64,000 nt of DNA from Acidithiobacillus sp. (GTDB lineage Bacteria > Pseudomonadota > Gammaproteobacteria > Acidithiobacillales > Acidithiobacillaceae), in assembly GCA_028697715.1 (NCBI GenBank), contig JAQVDS010000005.1, positions 1-64,000 on the forward strand. Direction: 5' to 3'. Numbering within the stretch: the stretch's first letter is position 1; each line of letters begins with the position of its first letter. Both the position numbers and the translations under genes were made by a program. Of this stretch, positions 14,642 to 20,078 are shown one piece after another. The notes beneath the pieces were generated by a model, which ran no database searches, was not told where the DNA came from, and saw only the letters and a list, made by a program, of their open reading frames with translations.

Positions 14642-15118
14642 TCAAGAACCGTCCTGACCGCGCTTGGGCACGAACTGAATGGCGGCAACGCGGGCTGCCA
14701 CCAGCACTGCCAGGAGCGCCGCCGTGGCCAGCAGATCCAAAGGGCCCAGCCGATGGGCATAGAGGCCAATGAAGACCTCGCGCAGGATGAAGACAATGGC
14801 GACTTCTGCCAGGACCCGCAGGCGAATGCGGTGAAACTCGAGGTAATCGGTAAAGGTGCGGAAAAGCTCGATGAGCACGAAAACCGAGAGCACATCCGAG
14901 ACCAGATTGGAGATGACCTCTTCCTGGTGCAGACTGAAAAATGCCGCGTAGACATCGCCGATCAGGCTCCAGACCGCATAGAGCAAAGTGATCAGCATGA
15001 GGAAGATGAGGACTGTGATGACAAAATCCAGCATCCTTCCATAAAAACGGATCACGGAACCGCGCAGGCCGGCGATCTCGCTGTAGCTGGCGGCGGATTT
15101 TTGCGCGCGCTCGCTCAA
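14642..15118 (-). CDS. PsiE-like membrane protein
   Basis: A 158-residue inner-membrane protein with about four hydrophobic segments and the FRTFTDYLEFHRIRLR stretch typical of the phosphate-starvation-inducible PsiE family, whose function is unknown. ATG 15118 starts five bases after the stop of the E2-E3 fusion gene, so it is almost certainly on the same transcript as the pyruvate dehydrogenase genes; erpA follows after 75 bases. Nothing in the sequence ties it to phosphate here. Confidence 0.8.
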   Translation of the reverse strand: MSERAQKSAASYSEIAGLRGSVIRFYGRMLDFVITVLIFLMLITLLYAVWSLIGDVYAAFFSLHQEEVISNLVSDVLSVFVLIELFRTFTDYLEFHRIRLRVLAEVAIVFILREVFIGLYAHRLGPLDLLATAALLAVLVAARVAAIQFVPKRGQDGS

Positions 15119-15123
15119 GGGAT

Positions 15124-18078
15124 TTACTGCTTATTGCGTGCCGAGCGCCGCAACCGAGATTGCAGACGCCGCGCCATTTCGCCAAAGAGCTCCGTCTGCG
15201 TCGGGTGCGGATGAATGGCGCTGCCCACCTGTTCCAGCGTCAGTTCGCCATGGACCATCAAGACGGCCTCGCCGACCAGGGTATCGGCGTGATCCGCCAG
15301 GAAGTGTACCCCGACGATGCGCTGACTCTGCTTGTCCGCGACCAACTTGATCAAGCCCTCGGTCTCGCCGGTCATCATCGCCTTGGCGTCGATGGACAAG
15401 GGCACCTTGACCTCTGCCACATCTATCCCGACGGCCTTGGCCTGCTCACCGGAAAGGCCGACGAAGGCCACCTGCGGGCGGGTAAAGGTCACGCCACTGT
15501 CCTTGCGCTGATCGTAGCGCGCCGATTCGCCCAGCAGATTGGCCGCCGCTACCCGCCCCTGTTGGCCGGCCGTATGGGCAAGCATGTAGCCGCCGATGAC
15601 GTCACCGACGGCAAAGATATGCGGGACATTGGTCTGACAGCGATCATTGGTGGCAATGGCGCCGCGCTCGCCCAGCTGTACGCCGGCCTTGTCCAGTTGC
15701 AGGGCTTCGGTATGCGGACGCTTACCGGTAGCGATCAGCAGCAGCTCGGCGACATAGTCGTGCTCCTGAGCTTCGGCGTCACGATAGCATACCGTCACAT
15801 CTCCCTTGCCACCGCTGATCTTCTGCACCGCCACACTGGTGCGCACCGTAAGACGCGGGCTGTTCTTGGCCAGCACCGCCATCAGTTGCTCGGCAACCTC
15901 TTTCTCCATTTCGGCGACCGGACGTGGCAGGGCCTCCAGCACCAGCACCTCGGCACCGAAATCGTGGAACATCTGCGCCATTTCCATGCCGATCGCACCG
16001 GCGCCGATGACACAGAGTTTCTTCGGGGGCGCAGCAAGGTCCCAGACCGTATCCGAGGTCACCGCAGCACCCGCGGCCAGCGCTTCCCGCGCGCCGGGAA
16101 TGGGCGGCACGAAGGCCGGCGCACCAGTGGCAATGACGCAGGCGCCGAAGCTCAGGCTGCGGGCGTCCTTGCCCGCGATTTCGACGCTATGCGGCCCGGT
16201 GAATCGAGCGAAGCCTTCCAGTACCTGAATCTTCATGCCTTGGTCAGTCTTCAGCGCCATCTCACCGCGCGTCTGCAGGATACCACGGCGATGTTTTTCC
16301 AGTTGCGCCCAATCCAGCTTGGCTTCGCCCAGGGCGATACCCATGGCGGCGTCGTGGGCGCGATCGCGAATGCGGTCGGCCGCCGCGCGCCACGCCTTGG
16401 AGGGAATACAACCGCGCCAGAGACACTCGCCTCCGGGATAGGGGGCATTGTTCACCAGGGTAACCCGAATGCCATGCTCAGCCAGCTCCCGTGCACAATC
16501 CTCACCACCAGGACCACCGCCAATGACCAGCACCTGGGTATCGTAGTCGCCCTCGGGGATGACGGGACCGCTGCTTCCGGCCCAAGCCTCGGGCTGCTCG
16601 ATGGCCATTTTCAGATCCTTGAGAAATGCCGCCGCCTCCGCCCCATTGACCACCCGGTGGTCGGCGGTGATGGTGATTGGCATGCCCTGCGGACCCGTCG
16701 CCGCCACCGCGAGGATCGCGGCCGTACCCGGAGTAACGATGGCATCGAACTGACTGATGCCGTACATGCCCATGTTGGAAATGGTGAAGGTTGGGTTCTG
16801 ATACTCCGGCGGACTCATGCGCCGCTTGCGCGCCTTCTCCAGCAAAGGCTTCCACGCCGCCTGCAATTCACTCAGGGAATGGCTGGCCACGTCGCGCAAG
16901 ACGGGTACCACCAGACCGCCGTCTTCCGTGGTGGCGGCAATACCAATGTCGTGCGACCGATTGTCGACGATGCGATCCCCCGGCTGATAGGCGGCGTTGA
17001 TCAGGGGATGCTTTTCGAGGGCCGCGGAGGCAGCCTTGGCCAAGGCCACGGTGACCGAGACCCCGCTGGCCTTGGCCACCCGCAGCAAAGCATCCGGCTG
17101 CACGTGGATGGTCACATGAAATACCGGGATGCTGAGGGAAGCCGTCATGGCCTGACTGATGGCCTTTTCGATGGCAGTCATCGCACGGCCATTGCCAGGC
17201 ACCGGCGCTGCCACCGGGACGGCAACGGCGGCCGGCGCGGAACTCCGGGCGAGGACATCGGCAGCCACGATGACGCCCGCTGGACCCGACCCACGAAGCT
17301 CTTCCAGAGACACGCCGCGCTCCCCGGCCAGCAGGCGGGCATAAGGGCTGGCCGTAGCGCTCGTCGGCCGGGGGGCCGGCTGGACGACGCCACTTGTCCG
17401 CAGTGGAGCTTGCGCGCTGGCAGCGGGAGCAGAGGGCATGGGCGCAGGCGCTGCCGCAGCCGTTTCTGCATTGGACTTGGCGGGCGTCGCAGCCACTGAG
17501 GCGGTATCGCGCCGGACCTGCGTAGGCTCATCCACCAGATAGGCAACGGGTTCGCCCACCGGAACCACGGCATCTGCCGCCACCAAGGGGCCGGACAGGA
17601 AACCAGAGCGGAAGACTTCGACATCCATGATGGCCTTGTCGGTTTCCACTGTCGCAACCACGCCCCCGCGTTCGACACGCTCGCCGGGCTGTTTTTCCCA
17701 GGAGACCAGCACGCCTTCCGTCATGGTGTCCGACAGTTGCGGCATCTTGATGGCATACCCCAGGTCGGCGTTCGACGCGGCTGGCGGCGGGCTGCTCGAT
17801 GTCGCTGCCGGACTGGCCTCCACGCTCGCGTCAGGACTATCGACCAGATAGGCGATGGCTTCACCCACCGGCACTACGGCGTCGACAGCTGCCAGCGGAC
17901 CAGCCAGGTAGCCGGAGCGAAAGACCTCGACGTCCATGATGGCCTTGTCGGTTTCCACTGTCGCAACCACGTCCCCGCGTTCGACGCGCTCGCCGGCTTG
18001 CTTTTCCCAGGAGACCAGCACGCCCTCGGTCATGGTATCCGACAATTGGGGCATTTTGATGACGTATGCTTCAGCCAT
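15124..18078 (-). CDS. Fused pyruvate dehydrogenase E2-E3 (lipoyl acetyltransferase and dihydrolipoamide dehydrogenase)
   Basis: One 984-residue protein joins two subunits that are usually separate. Domains in order: lipoyl domain 1 (Lys45 in ETDKAIMDVE), lipoyl domain 2 (Lys148, almost the same sequence), an Ala/Pro linker, a peripheral subunit-binding domain (about 243-278), an E2 acyltransferase domain to about 500 with DHRVVNGA (His474), then a FAD-dependent E3 from about 513 with GGGPGG, the redox pair Cys552/Cys557 in GGECLWRGCIPSK, and the C-terminal HPHPT. The E2 motif has Asn478 where most E2 proteins have Asp. It follows pdhB by 48 bases. The frame is unbroken, so this is a true fusion. 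Confidence 0.93.
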   Translation of the reverse strand: MAEAYVIKMPQLSDTMTEGVLVSWEKQAGERVERGDVVATVETDKAIMDVEVFRSGYLAGPLAAVDAVVPVGEAIAYLVDSPDASVEASPAATSSSPPPAASNADLGYAIKMPQLSDTMTEGVLVSWEKQPGERVERGGVVATVETDKAIMDVEVFRSGFLSGPLVAADAVVPVGEPVAYLVDEPTQVRRDTASVAATPAKSNAETAAAAPAPMPSAPAASAQAPLRTSGVVQPAPRPTSATASPYARLLAGERGVSLEELRGSGPAGVIVAADVLARSSAPAAVAVPVAAPVPGNGRAMTAIEKAISQAMTASLSIPVFHVTIHVQPDALLRVAKASGVSVTVALAKAASAALEKHPLINAAYQPGDRIVDNRSHDIGIAATTEDGGLVVPVLRDVASHSLSELQAAWKPLLEKARKRRMSPPEYQNPTFTISNMGMYGISQFDAIVTPGTAAILAVAATGPQGMPITITADHRVVNGAEAAAFLKDLKMAIEQPEAWAGSSGPVIPEGDYDTQVLVIGGGPGGEDCARELAEHGIRVTLVNNAPYPGGECLWRGCIPSKAWRAAADRIRDRAHDAAMGIALGEAKLDWAQLEKHRRGILQTRGEMALKTDQGMKIQVLEGFARFTGPHSVEIAGKDARSLSFGACVIATGAPAFVPPIPGAREALAAGAAVTSDTVWDLAAPPKKLCVIGAGAIGMEMAQMFHDFGAEVLVLEALPRPVAEMEKEVAEQLMAVLAKNSPRLTVRTSVAVQKISGGKGDVTVCYRDAEAQEHDYVAELLLIATGKRPHTEALQLDKAGVQLGERGAIATNDRCQTNVPHIFAVGDVIGGYMLAHTAGQQGRVAAANLLGESARYDQRKDSGVTFTRPQVAFVGLSGEQAKAVGIDVAEVKVPLSIDAKAMMTGETEGLIKLVADKQSQRIVGVHFLADHADTLVGEAVLMVHGELTLEQVGSAIHPHPTQTELFGEMARRLQSRLRRSARNKQ
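17624..18064. repeat. Direct repeat of the lipoyl-domain coding segment
   Basis: The stretches 17624-17755 and 17933-18064 are near-identical, 309 bases (103 codons) apart, and encode the two lipoyl domains of the E2-E3 fusion. They include a shared run around the lipoyl-lysine codon. The similarity at DNA level, including silent positions, points to a recent duplication or to gene conversion between the two copies. Confidence 0.9.
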
Positions 18079-18126: not shown

Positions 18127-19104
18127 TTACTTGCCCAGCAGTTTTTTGGCTGCTGCGACTACGTCGTCGGCATTGGGAATGGCCGCCTTTTCCAGGCGGC
18201 GATTGTAGGGGATGGGCACGTCCTTCGCGTGTACGCGCACGGGTGCGGCGTCGAGCTCGAAGAAGGCATCTTCGTTGATCAAGGCCATCACCTCGGCACC
18301 CACTCCCACCGGGGCCTCATCTTCCTCGACGATAAGGGCACGGTGCGTCTTGCGCACACTGGCAGCAATGCCTGCACGATCCAGAGGTTTCAGGGCACGC
18401 AGGTCGATGACCTCGGCCTCGACCCCCTCCTTGGCCAGACGCTCCGCTGCCTGCAAGGCCCAGTGGACACTGATGTTATAGGCAAAGATGCTCAGATCCC
18501 GCCCCGGACGCATTACTTTCACGCCTTCCAGCGGAGTGAAAAACTCCTCGTCCGGCACCTCGCCTTTCAGGTTATACATGCTTTCATGTTCGATAAGCAC
18601 AACCGGATCATCGGAGCGCACGGCACTCTTGAGCAAGCCATAGGCGTCGCGGGGGGTAGCGGGGGTCACAACGCGCAGGCCAGAAATTCCCATGAACACC
18701 TTTTCCATGCGTGCCGAGTGCTGTGCCCCCAACTGATGCGCGGTGCCGCCGGGCACCCGCATGACGAAGGGGCAGCGGATCTTGCCGCCAGACATATAGT
18801 GGATCTTGGCAGCGTTGTTCATGAGCTGATCCATCGCCAGCCAGGCGAAGTTGACACTCATGATTTCGACGATGGGGCGGCAACCAAGCATGGCTGCACC
18901 GATCCCGATACCGGTATAGCTATTCTCCGAAATGGGGGTGTCGATTACCCGCTCCGGACCATATTTCGCATAGAGACCCGATGTCGCCTTATAGGTCCCC
19001 CCGGCCACACCAATATCCTCGCCCATTGCAAACACCAGCGGATCCCGTGCCAGCTCCTCGTCGTGGGCACGCAAAATGGCCTGCCAATACATCATCTCTG
19101 CCAT
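18127..19104 (-). CDS. pdhB: Pyruvate dehydrogenase E1 beta subunit
   Basis: Beta half of the thiamine-diphosphate enzyme that decarboxylates pyruvate and acetylates the lipoyl arm of the E2-E3 fusion. The 325-residue protein shows family stretches such as GEDIGVAGGTYKAT, DTPISENSYTGIGIGAA and LIEHESMYNLKG. ATG 19104 lies two bases after the pdhA stop, and the E2-E3 gene follows. A branched-chain or acetoin dehydrogenase is possible by family alone, but linkage to gltA favours pyruvate. Confidence 0.93.
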   Translation of the reverse strand: MAEMMYWQAILRAHDEELARDPLVFAMGEDIGVAGGTYKATSGLYAKYGPERVIDTPISENSYTGIGIGAAMLGCRPIVEIMSVNFAWLAMDQLMNNAAKIHYMSGGKIRCPFVMRVPGGTAHQLGAQHSARMEKVFMGISGLRVVTPATPRDAYGLLKSAVRSDDPVVLIEHESMYNLKGEVPDEEFFTPLEGVKVMRPGRDLSIFAYNISVHWALQAAERLAKEGVEAEVIDLRALKPLDRAGIAASVRKTHRALIVEEDEAPVGVGAEVMALINEDAFFELDAAPVRVHAKDVPIPYNRRLEKAAIPNADDVVAAAKKLLGK

Positions 19105-19106
19105 GC

Positions 19107-20078
19107 TTACGCCCCCTCTGCCACGTACACATACCGCTCCAGATCCTCGACCCGGGGCTCCGGACTTTCGAGAGCAAAGCGGACGATCTCGTTTTCAATC
19201 TGCTCCAGGATTTCCTCGTCCATCGCCTGGAAAGCGGCGGCATCGATGATGCCCGCTGCTTCCAGCCGTTTCTTGTAGATGCCGATGGGATCACGCTGCG
19301 CCCATTGCTCCACTTCTTCCTTGCTACGATAGGCGCCGGAGTCGGACATGGAGTGCCCACGCAGACGGTAGGTCATCAACTCGAGAAAATAAGGCTCTCT
19401 CTTCTCGCGGACATGGGTGATGGCCTTCTCGGCCTCTGCCATGACCACATCGATATCCTGACCATCCACCTGGGAAGCCGCGATCTTATAGGGGGCGACA
19501 CGCAGGTACTGATTGATCTCGGAGGAGGCGCGTTCGATTGCCGTACCGATGCCGTAGAGATTGTTTTCGCAGACGAAGAGCACCGGCAGCTTCCATAGGC
19601 TGGCCATATTCATGGTTTCATGAAAAGTACCCTGATTGTTGGCGCCATCGCCGAGAAAACAGATGGCGATTTCGTCCCCGCCGCGCAGCTTGATGGCCTT
19701 GGCAAAGCCGGCGGCAAGAGGGAAAGGGCCACCGACCAGGGCATAGCCACCCATGAAATGGTGATCGACGTCATAGATGTGCATGGAACCACCGCGACCA
19801 CGGGAAGACCCGGTTTCCTTACCGTAGAGCTCGGCCATGACCTCCTTGGGATCGGCGCCACACTGAATCGCGTGAATGTGGTCACGATACCCGGTAACCA
19901 CATAGTCCTGACCCTTGCGTGCCTTTTCCAGCACCCCAATGGCACAGGCCTCCTGACCGGGATAGAGGTGGAGAAAGCCACCGATCTCCCGTTCCTGGTA
20001 AGCCTGGGCGCATCGCTCTTCAAAACGACGCGCAAAAAGCATTTCACGCAGCAGGCGCTTTCGGTCGCTGGCTTCCAT
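19107..20078 (-). CDS. pdhA: Pyruvate dehydrogenase E1 alpha subunit
   Basis: Alpha half of the heterotetrameric E1. The 323-residue protein carries the thiamine-diphosphate motif GDGANNQGTFHETMN (from Gly143), GGSMHIYD, and the conserved loop YRLRGHSMSDSGAYRS, which in homologues lies at the active site. It is the first gene of the pdhA-pdhB-E2E3-psiE-erpA unit. A 5-base inverted repeat (GATCA, 20104-20108; TGATC, 20114-20118) lies in the short upstream region and may be an operator. Confidence 0.94.
   Translation of the reverse strand: MEASDRKRLLREMLFARRFEERCAQAYQEREIGGFLHLYPGQEACAIGVLEKARKGQDYVVTGYRDHIHAIQCGADPKEVMAELYGKETGSSRGRGGSMHIYDVDHHFMGGYALVGGPFPLAAGFAKAIKLRGGDEIAICFLGDGANNQGTFHETMNMASLWKLPVLFVCENNLYGIGTAIERASSEINQYLRVAPYKIAASQVDGQDIDVVMAEAEKAITHVREKREPYFLELMTYRLRGHSMSDSGAYRSKEEVEQWAQRDPIGIYKKRLEAAGIIDAAAFQAMDEEILEQIENEIVRFALESPEPRVEDLERYVYVAEGA

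Follow-up and report, generated by a model that had tools for sequence, protein, structure and literature searches.

The window, a 64,000-nucleotide stretch of Acidithiobacillus DNA, carries on its minus strand (15124-18078) a single open frame of 984 codons plus stop, with no internal stop, in which the dihydrolipoyl acetyltransferase (E2) and the dihydrolipoyl dehydrogenase (E3) of pyruvate dehydrogenase (PDH) are joined (Table 1). Genes for a PDH-type E1 lie alongside the fusion, as is characteristic of members of a PDH complex. E1 is encoded by two separate genes, which sets the locus apart from the OdhA type, in which E2 is fused to E1. A genome scan yielded 174 loci, 80 of which were kept as named loci; E1-beta is found directly upstream at 74 of these 80, and the other six (L087, L097, L098, L127, L149, L159) start inside the fusion gene. 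Downstream follow genes for a PsiE-like protein, Fe-S biosynthesis and citrate synthase, in an order common to many Acidithiobacillus loci.

Table 1. Features of the fusion locus, in window coordinates (aa, residues of the fused protein).
Feature	Position	Strand	Basis or remark
pdhA, E1-alpha	19107..20078	-	TIGR03182, 411.6 bits against a cut-off of 393.85 (PDH equivalog); 2-base gap to pdhB
pdhB, E1-beta of alpha2-beta2-type PDH	18127..19104	-	NF006667, above cut-off; 48-base gap to the fusion gene
Fused dihydrolipoyl acetyltransferase (E2) - dihydrolipoyl dehydrogenase (E3), 984 aa	15124..18078	-	ORF and Pfam
Lipoyl domain 1, aa 5-80, lipoylation Lys45	17839..18066	-	PF00364, structure model
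Lipoyl domain 2, aa 108-184, Lys148	17527..17757	-	PF00364; K in 47/47 aligned
Peripheral subunit-binding domain (PSBD), aa 243-276	17251..17352	-	PF02817; PDB PSBD matches
E2 catalytic domain, aa 299-501, CAT-like fold, natural E2 C-terminus at about Trp499	16576..17184	-	PF00198 and own model
E2 active-site motif H474-R-V-V-N478 (Asn at the Asp position of HxxxDG)	16645..16659	-	Alignment
Linker from E2 to E3, aa 502-510	16549..16575	-	Length varies among 47 fused proteins
E3 domain, aa 511-976, FAD-NAD-dimerisation	15151..16548	-	PF07992/PF02852, fold match
E3 redox disulfide C552-LWRG-C557	16408..16425	-	Both Cys in 47/47
E3 His958-Glu963 catalytic dyad	15190..15207	-	47/47
Basic C-terminal helix, aa 969-984, RRLxSRLRR	15127..15174	-	Alignment; model helix 963-983
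PsiE-like gene directly downstream of the fusion	14642-15118		Kept in many Acidithiobacillus loci

Architecture of the fused protein

Five kinds of Pfam domain were assigned to the protein, all above the gathering score: two Biotin_lipoyl domains (PF00364), E3_binding (PF02817, residues 243-276, 41.5 bits against 23.7), 2-oxoacid_dh (PF00198, residues 299-499, E 2.9e-49), Pyr_redox_2 (residues 515-841, E 1.2e-66) and Pyr_redox_dim (residues 862-968). The open frame and these matches confirm a preliminary description of the locus, which had recognised E2 and E3 of PDH with two lipoyl domains in one 984-codon polypeptide and a PSBD kept despite the attached E3. The E2 half comprises two DKA lipoyl domains, a PSBD and a CAT-like catalytic domain with its histidine, and the E3 half consists of FAD, NAD and dimerisation domains with the CxxxxC motif and a His-Glu dyad. 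The catalytic residues are all there, namely the DKA lysines 45 and 148, His474 of E2, and Cys552/Cys557 and His958/Glu963 of E3. For comparison, the window protein was aligned with 46 relatives chosen for diversity and completeness among the fetched loci. Across these 47 fused proteins the Lys45 position holds lysine in 41 and a gap in the remaining six, and the span between the W499 and G520 positions measures 20-47 residues. The arginine-rich helix RRLxSRLRR that ends the fused E3 is conserved. One fused protein (L066:1634-4291, genome G029) has a single lipoyl domain.

AlphaFold2, run on the 47-row alignment, gave a mean pLDDT of 83.2 and a pTM of 0.56. Given this pTM and the low-confidence linkers at residues 87-102, 196-231 and 280-289, we regard the domains as well modelled and their relative placement as unreliable. 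The E3 half resembles solved E3 structures (best Z 42.3, rmsd 1.9, 451 residues aligned), many matches being tied, including mercuric reductase. With 376.3 bits it stays under the TIGR01350 equivalog cut-off of 408.8, as do all fused frames with scores listed. The equivalog name is barred by this score; the fold and the catalytic residues are nevertheless those of E3. As a fold search with the full-length model listed E3 only, E2 was modelled and searched alone. The separately folded E2 domain reached a pLDDT of 87.7 and matched E2 cores with a Z of 26.2 (pig E2p core, rmsd 1.8, 186 residues aligned); the OdhA structure 8p5v is among the matches.

The catalytic histidine of E2 is present in 47 of 47 aligned fused proteins, and the aspartate of HxxxDG is absent, being replaced by asparagine in every one of them (HRVVNG in the window protein). 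We considered that this exchange might leave a dead E2. That idea is weakened by E. coli E2o Asp379Ala, which retains about 9.5% of complex activity (PMC5986005, in part), and by 1dpb, 1dpc and 1dpd, whose PDB titles name His610 and Asn614 of Azotobacter E2p at the same spacing as H474 and N478. By analogy, asparagine at this position need not impair the enzyme and would not disqualify it as an E2. The E2 core (16576-17184) is about 15 residues short before the DHR motif when set beside solved E2p cores, and two unfused E2s of the same genome also look shortened there.

At its C-terminal end, the E2 model aligns through its residue 208, which is protein residue 501, to residues 630, 647 and 637 of the E. 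coli, human and Azotobacter E2s, positions that we take to be their C-termini. Alignment to the ends of solved cores indicates that the fused E2 stops at the usual E2 end, with E3 starting about 10 residues later. A C-terminal helix is predicted at 497-500, and the model reaches the ends of both cubic and 60-mer cores at residue 501, so that the assembly tail looks intact in the model. Trp499, at the position of the inter-trimer knob, is invariant (47/47). Since the two unfused E2s of the genome also finish with Trp-Leu followed by one or two residues, this tryptophan belongs to the natural E2 end.

Distribution and age of the fusion

Within the order, 27 of 31 genomes hold this E2 in a long frame and four gave no match of the fusion type. 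Full-length fused proteins (893-1025 aa) occur in 22 genomes; the five shorter frames consist of four cut by contig ends and one, in a metagenome-assembled genome (MAG; L084), with a frame break inside E3. Both E1 genes lie upstream in 19 of 20 fetched order regions, the twentieth being cut by a contig end. A profile spanning the E2-E3 junction matched 77 of the 369 genomes sampled from the class, a share that is not an abundance, as the draw was spread over families. All the genome sets sample related genomes. The 77 are the genomes with this E2 family, and 76 of them are fused, among them G153, which was matched in part and proved to hold a full fused frame, and G062, with E2 and E3 motifs in one frame and a later break. 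The single unfused member (G237, L168:1587-2900) encodes a 438-aa E2 with the motif DHRVINGVE; this E2 is separated from E1-beta by a GGDEF/EAL-type gene plus a HicAB-like pair (as judged by eye), and the operon looks disturbed. The phylum sample of 299 genomes contained the host genome and one further fused genome, of the same class; in these 299, a pair of neighbouring genes in G541 was not fused.

At 80 of 80 named loci, the E2 motif DHR..NG, with asparagine for aspartate, and the E3 motif GGECLWRGCIPSK stand within one frame. Carriers named there include Acidithiobacillus, Igneacidithiobacillus, Thiobacillus, Sulfuriferula and Thiohalophilus. Three MAG loci labelled Spirochaetia, Rhizobium and Desulfobacteraceae are probably mislabelled, because they sit inside proteobacterial groups of the E2 and E3 trees. 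The fusion is thus conserved in many families of the Gammaproteobacteria as GTDB defines them, and its genes are found in public genomes, where they no doubt already bear some annotation. In this respect the preliminary description, which was right about the fusion and the kept PSBD, was incomplete, the fusion being a conserved protein family and no local oddity.

That description had also named a stop or frameshift between the two halves as what would refute it. An artefact of this kind, whether a missed stop, a frameshift or an assembly join, could be suspected from the frame break in L084 and from the unfused relative in G237, but it carries a negligible probability and is ruled out by many independent assemblies: E2 and E3 share one frame at all named loci and in 76 of 77 genomes, and the relatives include full-length fused frames in 22 of the 31 order genomes. 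Furthermore, trees of the E2 and E3 halves match in their main groups, and the pairwise identities of the two halves correlate with an r of 0.77 over 1081 non-independent pairs. Concordant trees and correlated identities fit one old fusion that was inherited as a unit.

The retained subunit-binding domain

The PSBD has a mean majority identity of 0.69 in the 47-row alignment, compared with 0.39 and 0.40 in its flanking linkers, and by this measure it is under constraint although E3 is tethered. Its retention, which had first appeared as a puzzle, is eased by the upstream genes, because the E1 is of the alpha2-beta2 type that binds the PSBD in Bacillus (PDB 1w85 and 1w88, complexes of the Bacillus PSBD with E1). 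We therefore consider that the domain is probably retained as a dock for E1.

Alternatively, the PSBD might be kept since it still binds E3, its own or that of a neighbour, and cross-links the assembly. We regard this as rather unlikely on the basis of the contact residues, numbered after the B. stearothermophilus (Bst) PSBD and E3 by fitting to the 1ebd chain, which its PDB title gives as the Bst PSBD solved with E3; the roles of the zipper arginines and of Glu431 are those assigned in work on Bacillus PDH. Two features speak for continued E3 binding: the Bst Arg135 position is arginine in 47 of 47 fused proteins, and the E3 position matching Asp344 mostly carries Asp (33 of the 47), with Asn in 7 and Glu in 4. 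Against it, nearly all or all of the proteins lack two zipper arginines out of three, as well as the acidic residue matching Glu431. The Arg139 position is occupied by Gly, Ala or Pro in 47 of 47, the Arg156 position is arginine in 1 of 47, and the Glu431 position is Ser, Ala or His in 47 of 47. With these matches lost, the PSBD-E3 contact looks weakened. The argument is a weak one because the solved PSBD 1w4i has valine at the third arginine and, by eye, the free dihydrolipoyl dehydrogenase (Lpd) of this genome is without the Glu431 match; loss of the third arginine was not accepted as proof of lost E3 binding for the same reason, another solved PSBD being without it. A role of the PSBD as the E1 dock continues to be our preferred reading.

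Role in the cell and proposed assembly

The host genome (G000; 2.46 Mb, 71 contigs, 99.84% complete) contains three PF00198 and seven PF02852 genes. Besides the fused E2 it encodes two short, unfused ones, each next to E1 genes of its own and to acetate kinase-like genes (neighbours named by eye). These two further E1-alpha/E1-beta/E2 sets, each followed by acetate kinase-like genes, are found on contigs C55 (L011:7404-10714) and C25 (L012:5287-9688), near glycolytic genes and without E3, and their E2 motif is HRVIFG, with phenylalanine at the aspartate position. A separate lpd, which the preliminary description had proposed to look for, was located on C55 (NF004943, 624.8 bits against a cut-off of 432), about 16 kb from the E2 of the set on that contig. 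With two extra E1-E2 sets and a free Lpd, the fusion is not the only lipoate-dependent E1-E2 system of the genome. Four GCV_H-family proteins are encoded on C40, C37 (two) and C63 (L164-L167); these may be GcvH together with LbpA-type sulfur-oxidation proteins.

Across the class sample, homodimeric AceE (PF17831, E <= 1e-60) turned up in none of the 77 genomes carrying this E2, compared with 243 of the 292 others; 49 of 369 genomes have neither. A fusion that serves as a replacement PDH would be expected to show such exclusion. RuBisCO-family genes, counted by PF00016, which takes in RuBisCO-like proteins, occur in 71 of 77 carriers as opposed to 116 of 292 others, and the 2-oxoglutarate dehydrogenase (OGDH) E1 in 39 of 77 as opposed to 239 of 292. 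Canonical free Lpd (490 bits or more) was searched in 75 of the 77 genomes, G062 and G237 being left out, and is present in 36 of 37 OGDH-positive carriers and 2 of 38 OGDH-negative ones, the exceptions being G182, G287 and G345; G173, G285 and G380, which weakly reach the cut-off with 714-719-aa frames, were not counted. Among 18 carriers with a listed OGDH position and an Lpd search, 16 have the free Lpd and the OGDH E1 on one contig, no more than 5 kb apart. Fisher p-values for these associations are 4e-46, 4e-18, 9e-8 and 8e-18, calculated on related genomes with shared descent ignored. We initially entertained that the fusion is possible only without OGDH, E3 then having a single client. 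This is too strong with OGDH in 39 of 77 carriers, and we replace it by a division of labour with free Lpd. As the free Lpd tracks OGDH, PDH appears to get by with its tethered E3, and the free Lpd seems to be kept to serve OGDH. The carriers seem to rely on the fusion as their principal pyruvate dehydrogenase.

Judging from gene content and sequence, we propose with a probability of about 0.77 that the fusion is the E2-E3 subunit of a working PDH complex whose E1 is the upstream alpha2-beta2 enzyme. In this complex, E1 would decarboxylate pyruvate and acetylate the lipoyl arms, the E2 domain would hand the acetyl group to CoA, and the covalently tethered E3 would re-oxidise the lipoyl arm, yielding NADH. 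Once tethered, E3 would be spared competition with E1 over the PSBD, and the fusion would take the place of the AceE-AceF-Lpd type in its carriers. A complex acting on another 2-oxoacid, or an E3 mainly serving other lipoyl proteins such as LbpA and GcvH, is quite improbable. Sulfur oxidisers are among the named carriers, the genome holds the four GCV_H-type proteins, and the LbpA paper (PMC6067878, in part) suggests that 2-oxoacid dehydrogenases may share their E3 with LbpA for its re-oxidation; on the other hand, E1-alpha scores above the PDH equivalog cut-off, the fusion and AceE are mutually exclusive, and tethering E3 to E2 would be no help to a free LbpA.

Fusions of 2-oxoacid dehydrogenase components are a known kind, represented by OdhA and further by the lipoyl-E3 proteins. 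The latter (Neisseria P64k; N. gonorrhoeae E3 5u25) likewise have an E3 with extra N-terminal material and are not known to contain an E2 catalytic domain; the 602-residue 5u25 chain matches from residue 123, and we take its N-terminal extra to be a lipoyl domain. The PDH of Bacillus (Geobacillus) stearothermophilus resembles the fusion in its alpha2-beta2 E1 and its lipoyl-PSBD-catalytic E2, with one lipoyl domain and a separate E3 that competes with E1 for the PSBD. In mammalian PDH, E3 is anchored by the E3-binding protein, which leaves the PSBD of E2 for E1; the anchor is thus a second protein there and a covalent fusion here. The AceE-AceF-Lpd PDH of most Gammaproteobacteria catalyses the same overall reaction but has a homodimeric E1 and a separate E3, and excludes the fusion in our sample. 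Thiocapsa has separate aceE, aceF and lpdA (PMC10892978, in part), the E2 core of E. coli PDH is a 24-mer (PMC8421416, in part), and E3 is treated as shared and separate in PMC5178258 (in part). OdhA/KGD, the actinobacterial two-in-one 2-oxoglutarate dehydrogenase, is like the fusion in that a trimer-forming acyltransferase is joined to a dimer-forming enzyme of the same complex, through a short linker of 17 residues in OdhA. There, E2 is fused to E1, lipoyl groups act in trans and the protein is a homohexamer; in actinobacteria an insertion at the C-terminus keeps the trimers from touching one another, and E2 trimers and E1 dimers together make up the closed OdhA hexamer (PMC10415282, in part, for all these points). 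The present fusion differs in joining E2 to E3 and in having its own lipoyl domains and PSBD. Our searches of open PubMed Central papers brought up no description of a natural E2-E3 fusion.

By construction, E2 and E3 stand at 1:1, and the question of stoichiometry that the preliminary description had raised from one E3 per E2 subunit is a real one. That the fused E2 ends flush with cage-forming cores favours a cage with E3 dimers between trimers. More specifically, we tentatively suggest, at somewhat less than an even chance, that each E3 dimer sits on a two-fold axis and links a pair of E2 trimers. This would give either a full E3-loaded cage (24 E2 to 12 E3 dimers, with every PSBD free for E1) or an OdhA-like closed hexamer without a cage, the fusion having arisen once, in an ancestor of autotrophic Gammaproteobacteria, where it replaced the AceE-type PDH. 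Either form, the E3-bridged cage or the hexamer, would if true be without precedent among PDH architectures.

In the textbook view, the enzymes of PDH come together on a docking domain that they share; here, in a large and mostly autotrophic (CO2-fixing) group of bacteria, one partner is covalently fixed, which alters how the complex has to be put together. This natural variant lets the roles of PSBD competition, the E2:E3 ratio and cage symmetry be tested. The free Lpd, in following OGDH and not PDH, suggests a simple account of E3 fusion, in which the client that needs free E3 keeps its own.
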